This document shows, in pieces, positions 4,109 to 58,821 of a DNA stretch of 64,000 bases. The translations under genes were made by a program, and so were the position numbers. The stretch's first letter is position 1; each line of letters starts with the position of its first letter. This stretch comes from Galerina marginata (Eukaryota; Basidiomycota; Agaricomycetes; Agaricales; Galerinaceae): positions 434,001 through 498,000 of the forward strand of contig JAECYW010000025.1 of assembly GCA_023014335.1 (NCBI GenBank). The letters are read 5' to 3'. The notes below the pieces were generated by a model. That model did not search any database and had not been told where the DNA came from. It saw only the letters and a list, made by a program, of their open reading frames with translations.

Positions 4109-6629
4109 CTAATCCATGTCGTTAAACTTCCTCTTCTGCACCCTCGCTACCGCATCCTTGAATTTCTCATTGACCACTGCCTGCTTCAATGCACCCTTCT
4201 CGTCCGCTGCTCTCTTCTTGAGTTCTGGAAGGAAACAAGGACAAAAAATCAGCACCAGAAGTTAAAGCACCAGCGAGAGCATAGAAAGGCGAACCGACCT
4301 AGAGAGCGCTCTCCGATCCACAGTCGCAAATGGGCGTTACCAATTCCGTCACCCCCAGCTGTGGCACCAGCAGCCGACTTCGGTGTGGGACACTTCTTGA
4401 CATCGGAGGTCTTGACGGCTTTTGGCTGGGCGCCAAGTCCGGCTGCTAGCTGCTCCGCGGTGCCCAACATTGACTCTGCATGTTCAGTCGAGGTGTGCAC
4501 GTACTGCGCCGCAACGAGTGAGAGGACAAGGGCACGAAGGTGGTTGTCTTGCGCGGCAGTGGAGAGATTCAGAGCGGTACGTAGATGGGTCCTGTTAAAC
4601 ATCGAAAAGTGGCGGAAGAACTGAATAAGAAAAAGGAACAAAACGGTGACAGATGGGGCATGGCAACGTACTTTGTCACCAAGAATTCTTTGGACAGCGA
4701 AGCAGCTAGGACGGCACCGATAGCCTTCAACGTACCGCCAAGACCTTCACACTCTTTCACTATACCCGCACCCGCCTTGCGCAAGGCCTCCATTTCGTAT
4801 TCACGCTGCGCGGTGTCGCTAAGCTCGCTGGCAGCGCCAATGAGAAGCCACAATTCGCCAGCACGGGCAGAGACGTTGACCCAGTAGTCTTCACAGCCGT
4901 CATCCTCGTCGGAGGCAGGCTGGTTCGATGGCCGCTTTCGTGAAAGGTGAGCGGCTACTTGGTAACATTTGAGGGCCCTTTCTGTTCGACCAAGGCCATG
5001 GGCGAGGTGGGCCTGATGTAGGGTGATTCTCGCACTGTATATTGAGAAGAGCCCGTGGGTCCGGGTATCAGCTATGAGCTGCGAGAGGTTCTACGGGAAG
5101 GGGGTAAACTGGTAGTTCGTATAAAATATTGGGAATAACATACGTGTTCGGCTTCATCGAATTCGCTCCTGGAGATACAGACCTACACAAAGACTGACAG
5201 TTAGCACGACGTAAATCATGAAAAGCATATAAATCAACACGAACGCCAATAATTTCACAAATCATATCCGCCTTCATCTTCGACATCCTTCTATAAAACT
5301 CGTTCGCGTCCGCAACGGAGGACCATATAGGCACTAAAAGGGACGAATAAGGGAAAGTTCGGAAAGACGAAACCAAACATACGTGGCGCATCTGTCTTCA
5401 ACTCCTTGTCTACGACGAGGACGCCCTCGCTGGCAAAAACCTTGCGTTTAGGCTTGCGTCCAACTGGGTCCCGTTTTGAAACGCTGCTGACCAGGAACCC
5501 GAGAGCGAAAATGACCCGAGGATGGGTGACTTGGACCCGAAGTGGCGGTAAGTTGGGCAAGTCAATGTCGATAATGCCACTGACCCCGAACGCCTGCAAG
5601 GCCCCTCCATCTAACATTTCGTGCAACTTCTTGATCCGACATTGTGTATCTTTGCTGCTGCCGATGTAGGTATAGAAAAGAATACCGATGACCAGAACGT
5701 GAATGATGAGGACTTTTTCGATCTTGGTTTTACCAGGGACAGCCGGAAACGCATTAATGGGACTTTTGGATTCTTCTACAGGCTCGAACAAGAGGTTGAG
5801 GTCCTTCTCTGCGCTGTTCAAGGATTCCCCAACCCTGTTCCAGATGCCATGGTGAACTAGATCCCGTAGTTCGAGGACCATGGCGAAAAGCACCACTTCA
5901 CGGTGATTATTAAGCTTAGCCAGATCGTGGAGGTCCCGGATAGCGCCTAAGGACTTCAAACTAGAGGTCGAAGGCGAATATGGGCTCAGTTCATCACCGT
6001 CGGAGGCATTGGAATGACTGCTAATGTAGGCCAGGTGGGCGGCATATTGAACGTGAAGAGGGTCCGAGGGCACAATGAAACTCGTCAGTACTTTCTTGAG
6101 TGTATTTTGCGCTAGTTTTTGATTTCCTTGATGAATAGCAAGACGAGCAGAGAGACGTGTGATTTGGGGTTTGTAATATCGAAGAGAAGGATGCTAATTT
6201 CGTGATAAGTCAAGGTTTCTGGACATAGAAACAAGAGAGTGCGTACCTTGTGGGCAATAATCAGCTTTTGTAGAAACGAAGTCAGTTTTAGTGCGTCAGA
6301 TAAGAAGGCGAAGACCATACCGCTTTGGTAATCGCCTTTTCGACTTCGTCCTCAACCCCAAGCGTGTCCAAGCCAATCTTGAGACCAATTTCTGCTAACT
6401 CCGTCCATGCTTGACACTCCATATTGGGCTCGAGATTAGGCAAAGAAAGATATTTCCGCAACGCAAATAATGACAAGAAATTTGCACGCGCATGATTCCT
6501 ATGAGTTGGTGGGTGTGCTAGGAGCTGGGGCAAGGAGAGAAGTAGAATGTCTGTCGGTAATGGTTTGAGCACTGGGGGCTCGAGTTTTTGCCTTTTGAAT
6601 GGCCTATTGTCTACGTCTAAGGCGGACAT
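4109..6629 (-). CDS. MAU2: Cohesin loading factor MAU2/SCC4-like
   Basis: This multi-exon minus-strand gene starts at the ATG at 6629 (MSALDVDNRPFKRQKLEPP) and ends at the TAG at 4109-4111 after KRKFNDMD. The exons translate to an all-helical TPR-type protein. N-terminal segments resemble the MAU2 pattern (EVEKAITKA, then DALKLTSFLQKL). Middle segments are RALKCYQVAAHLS-like repeats. A C-terminal segment, NHLRALVLSLVAAQYVHTSTEHAESML, corresponds to the conserved C-terminal repeat of the Cohesin_load family. MAU2/Scc4 pairs with Scc2/NIPBL in the nucleus to load cohesin onto chromatin. I identify the family from the order and character of the segments, not from an alignment. Exon borders were not all resolved; introns lie near 4226-4300, 4570-4660, 5060-5380, 6075-6110 and 6240-6320. 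The tail is basic, as expected for a nuclear protein. Confidence 0.78.
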
Positions 6630-52116: not shown

Positions 52117-55100
52117 ATGGCTGACGACCGCCGACAGACCACCAAAGAGCCCAAAGGTTTCTTCCAACAACTAAAGAAGGCTATAAGACCTGCCAGTGGA
52201 TCGCAGAGTACGCCTCAAATCGGGTTAAATTCGCCTTCAAACGCTGTTACTCAGCCGGTCGAGACTACAGCGCCGCCTCCAGCTGGTCCTGCACCTACTG
52301 TAAAAATTGGCCTAGAGGAAGCTGCAAAGCTCCGGGCAAAATATACTCACTTTCGCATTCTTGTCATCGGGAGGGCAAATGCAGGAAAAACAACGTTGTT
52401 AAAGCGGGTGTGCAACACGACTGAGGAACCTTCTATTTACGACAAGGGACAAAACCTGGTGAGCTATCTGTTTATTGTGGCAGCTTACTCTCATCATTTC
52501 TTGCACGATAGCTGGAACCGACCGCAGAGGTGCGGCTCAGTGATTTCTGCACTTACCTTGAACTGGATGACTAATTGGCTGTGTAGCGCGGGATCCACGA
52601 CGTTCGCCGTTCATTTACCTTCAAGAGCAACCCAGGGTTTATCTTCCATGACTCTTGTGGTTTTGAAGCGGGGGGCGAGGAGGAATTTAAGGCTGTGATG
52701 ACTTTCATTGAAAACAGCACAAAGGCCAAGGAAGTTGGTGACCAAATCCATGTCATCTGGTGCGTTTTTATCACCTTCCTTGATGTGTCCTGGGTGCTTG
52801 CTGAGAATACACTTAGGTACTGCTTTGAGCCAGATGTATCACGTCCTTTGCTACCTTTAGAAGAGAAATTCTTCAATGAGAGCCGTGTCTGGAATGGTAA
52901 TTTCATCCTGAATGTTTAATTGGTTTCCAGAAACTAAAAAAAAATACAGTTCCAGTTATTGCAATTTTCATGAAGTTTGATGTTCTTATCACAAAAGTTC
53001 AAGGCTCAGAAGCAAACAAAAAGAAAGATACCAAAGAAGCTTTGAACATGTTGGAGGAAAAATTCATGCGTCCGCTCAGAAGCTACAAATTTCAGCCTCG
53101 GGCTTATGTGCAGTTTGAGGGTGGGTATTTCTTAAATTCAAAGGCCAGTTTGAGGACTGATGTGAGATCCAGCTATCAATAAAGATGATGGTGATCATCA
53201 GAAACAGGTCAAAAAACTAATCAAACAGACAGCAGCATCAATAGACAATCTTGCACTGAAGATGCTATTTGTCACTGTTCAACAAAATAACTTGGAGGTT
53301 TGCATTGAATATGCAGTAAATGAGTAGGTTTTATGTTTTGTTCAACCTGGCTACTATTTATTTTCCACTTTAGGCATATTTTTTCTGTGGATAATATGGT
53401 ATATCTTATTGTGAATTCTAGATATATTATGCTGAAGCAAATAAAGCTCAATTTAATTGCAAATACTTCAAGTTGGTTTAAACACTGCTATGATATGGTA
53501 TGTAATAATATTAAATGCATGCATCAAAACAAGACTAAAGTTGAAAAGGAATATGTGAGAATCTTATGTGCTAAGGGTTGAACACAATAATAACAGAACA
53601 CAGGATGTAAGTAATATAACTATATTATATTACAAAAAAACAGGATTAACATTTATGTTTAGTATGTAGGTGTAATAAAAAAACTTTCAAGAAATTTTTG
53701 ATAAGTATTTTCAAAGGGAAACAAAGTGAGAATTGAATTAATGGAAAAAGTAAAGTCTGAAAATTGTGTACAGAGGGTAACTAGCAGAGTACAGTGCTGA
53801 TTATTGGTGCTGACATTACCTGCATGAAATTTCATCCAGGCTGTGAGTTGTGTGGACTTTCTTTGCTTGATTTCAATTGCTGACATTATTTGCATGAAAT
53901 TCCATCCAGGGCGTGAGTAATGTGGGCTTTCTTTGCTTGATTTCAATTGCTGACATTGGCTGCATGAAATTCCATCCAGACTGTAAGTTGTGTGAGCTTT
54001 CTTTGCTTGATTTCAATTACTGACATTATCTGCATGAAATTCCATCCAGTATGTAAGTTGTATGGACTTTTCTTGCTTGATTTCAATTGCTGACATCACC
54101 TGTATGAAATTCCATCCAGACAGTGAGTTGTGTGAATTTTCTTTGATTGATTTCAATTGCTGACATTACCTGCATGAAATTTCATCCAGATTGTAAGTTA
54201 ACTAAGCTTTCTTTGATTGATTTCAATTGCTGACATTATCTGCATGAAATTCCATCCAGTTTGTGAGTTGTGTGGACTTTCTTTGCTTGATTTCAATTGC
54301 TGACATTATTTGCATGAAATTCCATCCAGGGTGTGAGTAATGTGGGCTTTCTTTGCTTGATTTCAATTGCTGACATTGGCTGCATGAAATTCCATCCAGG
54401 CTGTAAGTTGTGTGGGCTTTCTTTGCTTGATTTCAATTGCTGACATTGCTTCTATGAAATTCCATCCAGGCTGTGAGTTGTGTGGGCTTTTTTTGCTTGA
54501 TTTCAATTGCTGATATTATCTGAATGAAATTCCATCCAGCTTGTGGGTTGTGTGGACTTTCTTTGCTTGATTTCAATTGCTGAGATTACCTGTATGAAAT
54601 TCCATCCAGGATGTGAGTTATGTGAGCTTTTCTTGCTTGATTTCAATTGCTGATATTATCTGCATGAAATTCCATCCAGTTTGTGAGTTGTGTGGACTTT
54701 CTTTGCTTGATTTCAATTGCTGACATTACCTGCATGAAATTCCACCTAGTATGTGAGTTGTGTGGACTTTCTTTGCTTGATTTCAATTGCTGACATTACC
54801 TGTATGAAATTCCATCTAGGATGTGAGTTGTGTGACCCTTTTTTGCTTGATTTCAATTGCTGACATTACCTGCATGCAATTCCATCCAGTATGTGAGTTG
54901 TGTGAGCTTTTTTTGCTTGATTTCAATTGCTGACATTATCTGCATGAAATTCCATCCAGTATGTGAGTTGTGTGGGCTTTTTTTTGCTTGATTTCAATTG
55001 CTGACATTACCTGCTTGAAATTCTATCCAGGACGTGAGTTGTGTGAGCTTTTTTTGCTTGATTTCAATTGCTGATATTATCTGCATGAAATTCCATCCAG

Positions 55101-56479
55101 CTTGTGAGTTGTGTGGGCTTTTTTTTGCTTGATTTCAATTGCTGACATTACCTGCTTGAAATTCTATCCAGAACGTGAGTTGTGTGAGCTTTTTTTGCTT
55201 GATTTCAATTGCTGACATTATCTGCATGAAATTCCATCCAGCTTGTGAGTTGTGTGACCCTTTTTTGCTTGATTTCAATTGCTGACATTATCTGCATGAA
55301 ATTCCATCCAGCTTGTGAGTTGTGTGACCCTTTTTTGCTTGATTTCAATTGCTGACATTACCTGCTTGAAATTCTATCCAGGACGTGAGTTGTGTGAGCT
55401 TTTTTTGCTTGATTTCAATTGCTGACATTACCTGCATGCAATTCCATCCAGGCTGTGAGTTGTGTGAGCTTTTTTTGCTTGATTTCAATTGCTTACATTA
55501 TCTGCATGAAATTCCATCCAGCTTGTGAGTTGTGTGGGCTTTTTTTGCTTGATTTCAATTACTGACATTACCTGCTTGAAATTCTATCCAGGCTGTGAGT
55601 TGTGTGGGCTTCTTTTGCTTGATTTCAATTGCTGACATTACCTGCTTGAAATTCTATCCAGAACGTGAGTTGTGTGAGCTTTTTTTGCTTGATTTCAATT
55701 GCTGACATTATCTGCATGAAATTCCATCAAGCTTGTGAGTTGTGTGACCCTTTTTTGCTTGATTTCAATTGCTGACATTACCTGCATAAAATTACATCCA
55801 GGGCGTGAGTTGTGTGAGCTTTTTTTGCTTGATTTCAATTGCTGACATTACCTGCATAAATATCAATCCAGAAAGTGAGTTATGTAAATTTTTTAAAAAA
55901 ATATGATCCTTAATATTCCTTTATATGTCTTCTAGCTTGTAGCTACTCTACTACACTAGTTTTGTCCCATAACCTCAACACACTTGAATTTTACAGGCAC
56001 ATAATATTCAAGATATTCTTACTCCTCAATTCAATGTAAGATTTTTTAATTTCCCACTTTTATTATATTAATTTCCGTTATATAGAAACCATCCTTAAAA
56101 GCTTTTATTGGTGTGTTTGCAAACATCCATTTTTCTATTGGCTTTTGTTTTTATTCTAGACTCTTTAGCCATTCTTATCTGTCTTGGACATTCCTTTTGG
56201 CTTGTTCAGCAAGGCTTCAGTTTTATCCCAGCTTTCACTCAAGCCTGGGCCATTTATCTGAAAACCAAGGATGAACAACTCGATCAACAACTATATAAGC
56301 ACTTCAAATTGACAGAAAGCAATGACTGGTTTACTGTTAAAATTAAACCATCTGAAGGTGAATGTGCCAAAGTTAAGAAGATAGTCATTGACAACCTTCT
56401 TTGTAAGTCTGGTCCTTGTCTTTTTTTTCCCTGTGTGGATAATATATTTCCTTTAGCTTTTCCTCAACCCATTATTTAA
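52117..56479 (+). CDS. G-domain GTPase containing a one-codon micro-exon array (GTPase 2)
   Basis: The ATG at 52117 begins MADDRRQTTKEPKG. Exons that join in phase: 52117-52458, 52512-52529, 52587-52759, 52817-52886, 52931-53120, 53173-53323 and 53374-53497. The putative 3-nt exons follow, then 55997-56035 (13 codons), 56086-56110 and 56160-56479. Motifs: RILVIGRANAGKTTLLKR (G1), FIFHDSCGFEAGGEEEF (G3) and IAIFMKFDVL at G4, where Met replaces the usual Thr of TKxD. The middle exon carries QQNNLEVCIEYAVNE and the next NTSSWFKHCYDM. The tail has a hydrophobic span (SLAILICLGHSFW). The exon 4 donor is a weak GTCTGG, and the final intron is optional; both versions end at the same TAA. The family is that of GTPase 1 and the function is unknown. 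The 3' half lies in CpG-poor DNA, so the gene may be methylated or silenced. Confidence 0.68.
53604..55938 (+). other. Run of about 34 putative 3-nt micro-exons
   Basis: Between the phase-0 donor at 53498 and the phase-0 exon at 55997, every unit has the form acceptor AG, three bases, donor GTRAGT/GTRGGT/GTAACT. Diverged 5' units: GAT 53604-53606, TAT 53663-53665, AGG 53774-53776. Regular units start at 53840 and recur every 70 bp to 54960, then at 55031, 55101 and 55172, and every 70 bp to 55872. A diverged 3' unit, CTT, is at 55936-55938. Codon counts: CTT 7, TAT 5, GCT 5, GAT 3, GGC 2, GAC 2, AAC 2, TTT 2, and one each of AGG, ACT, ACA, ATT, GGT and AAA. No stop codons occur. Introns in the regular part are 67-68 nt with TTGCTGAC-type branch points about 26 nt before the acceptor. 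Splicing is inferred, not shown. Confidence 0.55.
53807..55894 (+). repeat. 70-bp tandem minisatellite, about 30 copies
   Basis: The unit runs through TTTCAATTGCTGACATTATC, TGCATGAAATTCCATCCAG, three variable bases, GTGAGTTGTGTG and a pyrimidine-rich CTTTCTTTGCTTGA. Two units are 71 bp through an extra T. Copies are highly alike, with higher-order similarity: units 1-2 resemble 7-8, and pairs near 55100-55740 recur. The array lies inside GTPase 2. The only CpG dinucleotides in it fall where a micro-exon ending in C meets the GTGAGT donor. Confidence 0.95.
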
Positions 56480-57768: not shown

Positions 57769-58821
57769 TGTCACGACAGGCTTAATTTCAGACTCGACGA
57801 TGCGACATCTGGACATCTAATCCTCCATTCATACATCCAAGCGCTTATTCACTGTAATATGCGCCCACACACTCCTTATTAGTCATGTCATTAAATTCTT
57901 CTCGGCGCTTACTGATCCTACAGTGTGCTTATTCATCTTTTGTATTACTAATCACCCAATTTGCTTACTGATCGGTCTCGGCACTTATTGATCCTTTCAT
58001 TTTTATTACCAATCAGCCTCGGCACTTACTGATCTTCTCAGATTTTATTACCAATCAGTCTCGGCGCTTATTGATCCACTCTTTTGCTTACCAATTTCTT
58101 ACAAATCCACTTACCAATTGCCCTTGGCGCTTATTCACTCCTTACCAATTGTATTATTCAGCCAGTATTTTCATGTAAAGTTGCTTACATAGTACTGTAT
58201 CTGGAAAGGTATAAAAGGGAGCCAAAATTCTGAGCAGAGGAGAGCATCTAGATTATCCAGCCCCATTATCCAGATCACCCTCTTCTATTCAGCTCAGTTT
58301 GCTAGTAGATCCAGATATTTCCAGAGTGGAATAGTCTGCTAGCCAGCTTATTATTTCAAATCCCCTTGACCTTGCCAAGTGCGTTGCTTGCAAATTCAAG
58401 GCATATACCCATTTACCACTTATTATTTTGCTGTCCGCTATCTTCGACGTCCTGCAAGAGCCAGTGAGTCATTATTGCTGCCAGTAAATTTTATCATCTG
58501 CGTTTTCTTTTCAATTTCGACATTGCTTCAGCTGCGCACGCACTGAGCATTTTTATTCTACTGACAATCATTGCCCCTGTCTTTGAGACTATTATCTGAA
58601 ATCTACATTGAGCTACATTTAGTTCTAATTTCATATAGAATTATATTAGCTTGACCAGTAACTGCAGAGATTATTTTCGCTATTCAGCTACTCTCCGCAC
58701 TTACAAATTTATCACTTGAACAAACAAACTAGCATTGCTAACGAAACCACTCGCACAAACTGGAATAGGCCAAAGCATAACCTTTCGCTGAAACCCAGGT
58801 AAACCAAAGTTTATGTCGACA
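57769..58821 (+). repeat. Putative left LTR of a second retrotransposon
   Basis: It starts TGTCACGACAGG and may end TGTCGACA at 58821. A TATAAAAG box lies at 58210-58217. 57890-58140 contains degenerate copies of a roughly 50-bp unit (GGCRCTTAYTGATC with CCAATCAG). A TGG-starting primer-binding-like stretch follows at 58826, and Gag starts at 58850. The right LTR would lie outside the window, so the end points are inferred from position only. Confidence 0.5.

Follow-up and report, generated by a model that had tools for sequence, protein, structure and literature searches.

Tandemly repeated exons were reportedly described by Davis in 1988, the title giving them as encoding 81-base repeats. 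In the available portions of the articles cited here and below, the micro-exon genes of schistosomes have exons mostly of 15 bp (the range given as 3–81 and as 6–81 bp), introns of 100 to almost 5000 bp and secreted products (PMC10526429). Single micro-exons of 3 nt or 1 nt are spliced in Drosophila hth (PMC7392893) and in plant APC11 and VPS55 (PMC8831610), and human RPS24 contains consecutive exons of 3, 18 and 22 bp (PMC12686416). Among the matches listed in the open-licence PubMed Central (PMC) literature, micro-exon genes, tandem exon repeats and intron gain are treated separately. Here, we analyze a GTPase gene of the fungus Galerina marginata, located on the forward strand of a 64,000-nucleotide stretch of DNA, the window (G000:C18:434001–498000, from an assembly of 69.3 Mb in 43 contigs). 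The region 53498–55996 of the window is predicted to hold 36 short in-frame micro-exons, mostly single codons, which are likely spliced into the GTPase mRNA as a variable linker. We put the probability of this reading at about 0.87.

Results

Structure of the predicted gene

The gene model (window 52117..56402, + strand) joins exons through splice signals and homology. All of its 45 introns are GT–AG and 48–68 nt long, and the reading frame is open throughout. The closest annotated protein is P0001 of Galerina marginata (83% identity/homology; best 120 of 672 matches), and the best named relatives belong mostly to what we take to be gilled mushrooms. Below, C and L numbers denote contigs and loci of the genome, and P numbers denote proteins. 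The features are as follows.

52117–52458, 52512–52529, 52587–52759, 52817–52896, + strand: 5' coding exons of the GTPase (gene model, homology to P0001)
52950–53120, 53173–53323, 53374–53398, + strand: 5' coding exons of the GTPase, continued (gene model, homology to P0001)
53399–53446, + strand: probable additional 48-nt phase-0 intron (by eye, outside the 45-intron model)
53447–53497, + strand: final full-size exon ahead of the array, ending ..SSWFKHCYDM, phase 0 (gene model, paralogs)
53549–53554, + strand: predicted 6-nt micro-exon GAATAT (EY), present in 8/8 C18/C23 paralogs examined
53604–53606, + strand: predicted 3-nt micro-exon GAT (Asp), identical in 8/8 C18/C23 paralogs
53663–53665, + strand: predicted 3-nt micro-exon TAT (Tyr), identical in 8/8 C18/C23 paralogs, L017 and L042
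53717–53725, + strand: predicted 9-nt micro-exon GGAAACAAA (GNK), G-x-x in 8/8 C18/C23 paralogs
53774–53776, + strand: predicted 3-nt micro-exon AGG (Arg); six C23 paralogs have GAG or ATG
53840–55874, + strand: tandem array of 30 predicted 3-nt micro-exons, introns 67–68 nt, peptide AGTYTIFGAALDFYDYYDLNLLDALANLGK (repeat finding, gene model)
55936–55938, + strand: last predicted 3-nt micro-exon CTT (Leu), TTT in six other aligned paralogs
55997–56035, + strand: first full-size exon past the array, AHNIQDILTPQFN, phase 0 (compare VHN..V.A.F in relatives)
56086–56110, + strand: exon KPSLKAFI plus 1 nt (compare KPSLYAF in P0072)
56160–56402, + strand: C-terminal exon SLAILICLGHSFW..DNLL (gene model)

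Between the flanking exons, the model contains 34 exons of 3 nt, one of 6 nt and one of 9 nt, and the peptide from ..WFKHCYDM to AHNIQDIL.. reads EY-D-Y-GNK-R-AGTYTIFGAALDFYDYYDLNLLDALANLGK-L (exons of 6, 3, 3, 9, 3, 30 × 3 and 3 nt). The initial annotation had proposed 34 one-codon exons in units of about 70 bp, each with intron signals around exactly three bases, flanked by exons in phase 0. Our count agrees: there are 30 array units of 70–71 bp, each AG-NNN-GT, together with GAT at 53604, TAT at 53663, AGG at 53774 and CTT at 55936; the gene model likewise places the exon boundaries at 53497 and 55997 in phase 0; and the last 20 codons read DFYDYYDLNLLDALANLGKL, as claimed. The inventory was nevertheless incomplete, as the 6-nt (53549–53554) and 9-nt (53717–53725) exons had been overlooked. 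Similarly, the exon drawn at 53374–53497 keeps its phase-0 end at 53497, but it is probably split by the 48-nt intron at 53399–53446, because P0001 is without the residues that this segment would encode. The introns between the 5' coding exons (52117..53398) measure 50–57 nt, another intron likely starts at 56403 (GTAAGT), and the N-terminus of the protein, MADDRRQTTKEPKG, looks hydrophilic on inspection. A second tandem repeat (57977–58095, 42 bp, 2.9 copies) follows some 2 kb downstream.

Tandem Repeats Finder reported the array at 53808–55885, with a period of 70, 29.7 head-to-tail copies and 88% matches, and the unit spacing is 70 in 27/29 and 71 in 2/29 cases. Such units are also what an intronic minisatellite would look like, in which the 2.5 kb is a single intron and the splice-like signals descend, by tandem duplication, from one ancestral intron end. 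It is plausible that unequal exchange shapes the array, and the public model of P0001 ends just past HCYRM-EY, continuing with VRILCDKN, so that the 6-nt exon is used and is followed by intron-like sequence. We consider this explanation very improbable. Skipping the whole region in the model would create one 2.5-kb intron, as compared with 48–68 nt for every modelled intron, and the codon comprises the most variable bases of the unit. The column entropies of the triplet are 1.94, 1.86 and 1.07 bits versus an intron mean of 0.24 bits (29 intron-plus-codon units), with columns 1 and 2 the two highest of 71 and column 3 the fifth. The earlier description of the triplet as the most variable part is borne out by these values, and a recount again gives 14 different triplets in 34 (counted among 33 rule-found units, to which CTT at 55936 adds none).

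Array genes across the genome

An 84-residue query piece gave 35 matches in the genome, and one-codon arrays were found in 14 GTPase genes: two on C18, six on C23, one on C20, four on C40 and one on C42. Three weaker relatives, L043–L045, were scanned and showed no array. When nine loci (L017, L038–L045) were scanned on both strands for chains of at least four units with exon lengths of 0–20, only length 3 was returned, in six loci.

The intron units of the 14 genes fall into four types, C18/C23, C20, C40 and C42. The C18 and C23 introns are alike, whereas the C20, C40 and C42 introns differ from these and from one another. With the splice signals masked, the between-type similarity was reached by at least 19 of 300 shuffles in 8/12 comparisons; the exceptions were C20 against three C18/C23 consensuses, reached by 1, 3 and 10 of 300. 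No between-type score attains the 64–74 found within C18/C23. The predicted exon–intron grammar is common to the intron types. The short exons ahead of the array recur as well: the 6-nt, GAT, TAT and 9-nt exons occur in 8/8 C18/C23 paralogs, with introns of 48–65 nt, and the 6-nt exon of the paralogs encodes NH, NY or DY; NH also stands in the relative P0086. The C20 gene (L017) has the exons GAC, TAT, GGTAAAACG and GAG, encoding GKT at the GGTAAAACG position, and the C42 gene (L042) also has GAT and TAT exons. The counterparts of the 9-nt exon are GKT in L017 and GKE, GNK, GKT and similar residues in relatives. A counterpart of the AGG exon (53774) was not found in paralog L010.

The units are constrained in exon length, splice sites and coding content. 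A hidden Markov model (HMM), which needs no motif at the match but was trained on motif-selected units, found 391 full units, or 381 after removal of 7 off-array single matches and 3 edge misregistrations. The exon is three bases long in 381/381 units, and 379/381 keep AG and GT, as the initial annotation had stated for the splice signals of the array in the window. Within the 25 intron columns flanking the exon on each side, 120 and 92 of 396 HMM matches contain an indel. Four apparent stops proved to be three edge matches and one unit 4 bases out of register (AG-GGA-GT there). Beyond the preamble of short exons, there are no missing-unit gaps, bar a 735-bp gap in L014 that is an insertion within an intron. 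Among strict units, 0/372 are stops, versus a shuffled mean of 16.0 (bases shuffled within genes; 0/5000 as low); with distinct triplets taken once per gene (n = 153), the shuffled mean is 5.4 stops and P is 0.0016, permutation counts that overstate independence because the array units are copies.

Other reading offsets are disfavoured, with 7 and 56 stops in 358 codons each versus 0. Other exon lengths were also rejected. In a looser scan, lengths of 6–14 appeared also in L010, L011, L012, L015 and L016, their source being GT repeats within the units such as GTGAGTTGTGTGT; lengths of 5, 2, 7 and others came from one L010 spot outside the array. For the minisatellite explanation, the absence of any stop or exon-length change across the 14 genes, and the retention of splice sites between diverging introns, is difficult to accommodate. 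The same units, stop-free and with intact splice sites, argue against a scheme in which only the preamble (the 6, 3, 3, 9 and 3-nt exons) is spliced in and the tandem array is skipped and slowly decaying.

Chance was ruled out as the origin of the pattern by background and length controls. In 146 kb of background, with exon lengths of 0–30, there was no chain of at least three sites, and 16 chains of at least two were spread over twelve lengths. Genome-wide, CCAG-NNN-GTGAGT pairs 40–70 bases apart number at least 144, the backward control gives 0, and the count inside nine GTPase loci is likewise 144; the two-base and four-base versions of the pattern gave 0 among the matches listed. Other three-base forms gave at least 21, 14, 6, 0 and 3 matches, and every match falls in a GTPase locus of C40, C42 or C23; the three TTAG-GTAAGT matches are the Asp-Tyr pair. 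The six three-base forms thus total at least 188 matches, all in GTPase loci, with one form at 0. These counts are lower bounds and cover six acceptor/donor forms, so that arrays with other letters are possible. A search with the unit core, allowing up to 3 mismatches, hit three isolated places elsewhere (C34 and two on C40).

For 9/14 array genes, another and more distantly related GTPase match is located about 1.1–4.9 kb away (C18:482222, C18:558795, C23:3561130(-), 3808217, 3881257, 3920455(-) and 4045894, C40:3397516(-), C42:952004(-)), which suggests that array gene and neighbour are a duplicated gene pair. Three of these nine stretches were scanned separately and showed no array. Downstream of the array at 1.73 Mb on C40, the stretch L038:5400–6100 gives the impression of rearrangement and, on visual inspection, seems to include a reading frame resembling that of a retroelement; this array gene (L038) may be broken. 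In L014, at about 5005–5660 (G000:C23 about 3,887,505–3,888,160), an array intron carries an insert of about 650 bp with inverted ends GGGCTGCGCACCGG..CGGTGCGCAGCCCT, resembling a DNA transposon.

Residues in related proteins

Protein searches (best 120 of 672, 67 of 67 and best 120 of 235 matches; 56 sequences inspected) gave ten proteins with [DN]-Y-[GE] at the site, encoded by contigs of 906–1315 bp: P0050, P0072, P0086, P0106, P0121, P0122, P0123, P0124, P0151 and P0153. Nine of the ten continue into the C-terminal exons (..SFW..). We took these contigs as complementary DNA (cDNA) because they lack introns. Apart from the first residues of P0123 and P0153, the motif proteins align across the exon junctions without intron sequence, and the open reading frames of other contigs, such as P0126 and P0127, contain translated introns at the same junctions.

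At the site, the related proteins show residues resembling the products of the 6, 3, 3, 9 and 3-nt exons, in the same order, and a variable stretch comes next. P0086, with HCYWM-NH-D-Y-GKE-E, has the layout of the C23 gene L011 (HCYRK-NH-D-Y-GNE-E), and D-Y-GKT-E in P0151 is identical to the product of the C20 exons GAC, TAT, GGTAAAACG and GAG. Four residues separate HCY (or its equivalent) from DY in 8/10, as in the eight C18/C23 genes. Related motifs occur elsewhere, with HDYG in P0013 and P0065 and similar residues in P0034, P0060 and P0174, while P0155 and P0208 start within the variable stretch. In ten proteins (nine motif proteins plus P0155, with P0123 excluded and borders set by the author), this stretch has 8–44 residues and is of low complexity; cysteine is absent and serine occurs once. 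In composition it correlates better with the genomic micro-exon residues (r 0.58) than the rest of the proteins does (r 0.17). In the public model of P0015 from Phlegmacium glaucopus, IMMLILMMVMMLLLLLIMLI stands directly before SILICLENSFW, and may be a one-codon array annotated in another phase.

These proteins bear on each alternative. The presence of residues at this spot in relatives is unfavorable to an intronic minisatellite. The preamble-only scheme can point to the fact that the preamble residues alone match position by position between genome and relatives, but the relatives have 8–44 further residues after DYG or its equivalent, and we regard this scheme as very unlikely. In a third alternative, the micro-exons are spliced, but donors and acceptors pair freely, so that the in-frame subset of codons varies from one transcript to the next. 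The units are all in phase 0 and near identical, any skip would keep the frame, and the span of 8–44 residues in relatives agrees with this; skipping or inclusion of units at will is possible. Against it, the stretch lengths of the relatives resemble whole arrays of this genome and may differ between genes, and no isoform pair from one gene was seen among the sequences inspected. Free pairing is therefore conceivable, but we find it rather doubtful.

The reading of the array as spliced micro-exons did well in its predictions concerning stops, exon length, a shared architecture on dissimilar introns and the residues of relatives. In addition to the training of the HMM and the copy relationship among units, several observations weigh against it. 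On the genomic side, C20 introns are slightly nearer to C18/C23 than shuffles are, and the two types may share an origin. Single genes are stop-free at offset 1 in 7/14 cases and at offset 2 in 2/14; the phase assigned to the four C40 genes is provisional; and copy number comes from one assembly. Repeats within units, such as GTGAGTTGTGTGT, provide nearby alternative donors. Two of the 381 units, L016:4897 and L040:4809, have a broken splice site (one GG donor, one AA acceptor), and constitute natural tests of skipping. On the protein side, P0123 stops shortly past its variable stretch and its first residues are unclear, and P0153 opens with intron-like residues, giving it an unspliced look, and has a stretch of 8 residues. 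The spacer between HCY and DY is three residues in P0072 and seven in P0106; DYV is found in P0056, the sequence of P0150 continues into the first intron, and the motif is absent from P0081, P0107 and P0152. The array codons vary, hence genome and relatives do not match one to one, and in a relative the stretch might be spread over fewer exons. The missing introns are our one ground for treating the relatives' contigs as cDNA, and we infer splicing in this species from sequence.

Turnover between sister genes

The sister genes L011 and L015 share 99.0% identity across the 1300 bp that precede the first one-codon exon and 92.3% across the 698 bp that follow the last. L011 has 40 one-codon units reading DYEYHTTVGPRRGFGEETYFGEETYFAGTATYAGAGAVTF, and L015 has 26 reading DYEYHAGTGLFAGAGATGIGGAPATF. 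GEETYF occurs twice in the L011 peptide, a block repeat that looks like an in-register exchange of several units. Because the array peptides differ greatly between sister genes that are 99% identical upstream, the array is probably a device that alters one part of the protein without breaking the frame.

Protein family and fold

Pfam PF01926 (cut-off 21.9 bits), scanned over the relatives' proteins, matched P0034 (25.9), P0060 (25.3) and P0015 (24.3); the nearest relative, P0001, scored 20.2 bits, below the cut-off, and the partial P0106 gave no match. In the AlphaFold2 model of P0034 (mean predicted local distance difference test, pLDDT, 85.7), the variable region 293–325 sits between the G-domain half and the C-terminal helices, and it contains the sole internal stretch under pLDDT 50 (296–305). 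The fold matches were led by immunity-related GTPases (IRG), with septins close behind, and the one sequence match in the PDB is named GTPase Der (E 0.0027). Since septins follow IRG so closely, an immune role of the family is a lead only.

Discussion

How such an array might be spliced and how it might evolve can be outlined from its structure. Fungal introns of this size are usually recognized by intron definition. Each 48–68-nt intron would be removed in this way, one after another, because a three-base exon is probably too short for two spliceosomal complexes at once. Pairing of the nearest donor and acceptor as the default would then include every unit. The codon and its own intron would travel as one repeat unit, with unequal exchange or conversion adding, removing and swapping whole codons, so that minisatellite turnover could not shift the frame, whatever the repeat length. 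Point mutations would subsequently diversify the codon, with the splice signals retained. Such a gene would encode a G-domain protein whose loop ahead of the C-terminal helices changes rapidly, and for this protein a role in recognition or immunity is a guess. We lean slightly towards a broader view in which one amino acid per exon and a unit length (about 60–80 bp) uncoupled from the frame turn minisatellite instability into a codon-by-codon generator of diversity at one GTPase loop, possibly for recognizing self, rival fungi or parasites, and possibly further sampled by alternative splicing.

If transcripts confirm the micro-exon reading, the spliceosome joins about 36 micro-exons, mostly single codons, in one short stretch of mRNA, and two questions become directly testable: how small an exon can be, and in what order adjacent introns are removed. 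The arrangement would be a way to keep hypervariable coding DNA in frame at any repeat length. Gene prediction can miss such arrays; for the nearest relative, the public model stops at this point. The arrays would also be suited to measuring codon-level diversifying selection against the intron sequence of the same repeat unit.

The initial annotation knew of no described system of this kind. Our searches agree, as no tandem array with one codon per exon appeared among the matches listed in the open-licence PMC literature, a scope outside which subscription papers and preprints fall. Recursive splicing sites are zero-length exons in which acceptor and donor abut as AG-GT, and they were rejected as a description because three bases separate acceptor and donor in 381/381 units. 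A functionless minisatellite shares the head-to-tail units, but the region is under splicing and coding constraint.

Among fungal systems, introner-like elements are likewise near-identical introns multiplied in one genome (PMC4457414). They are described there as invasive introns. Introner-like elements spread over separate, unrelated genes, whereas here the copies lie head to tail inside one GTPase family, with 144/144 matches to one pattern in nine GTPase loci. Intron gain by tandem duplication also yields introns from duplicated DNA with splice signals (PMC4974935), but the available text concerns one gained intron, not an array with one codon per unit. The hth, APC11, VPS55 and RPS24 cases establish that tiny exons do splice, but these exons are isolated or few, and their sources, as far as available, present no tandem one-codon array.

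The aphid bicycle and megacycle genes are closer, being a fast-evolving family with many same-phase micro-exons, more than 100 in one gene (PMC9168663). They differ in that their internal exons are almost all in phase 2, and the accessible part of that article describes no tandem unit of intron plus codon. Like the schistosome micro-exon genes, the gene described here strings together many very short exons with lengths divisible by three (36 micro-exons of 3, 6 and 9 nt), and has a variable protein and a structure that is hard to annotate; unlike them, its array exons are all one codon long, its introns are 48–68 nt in tandem instead of 100 to almost 5000 bp, and its host is a G-domain protein (PMC10526429). 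The splice signals look ordinary, and of the known kinds micro-exon genes come nearest, but we regard the architecture predicted here as new in kind.

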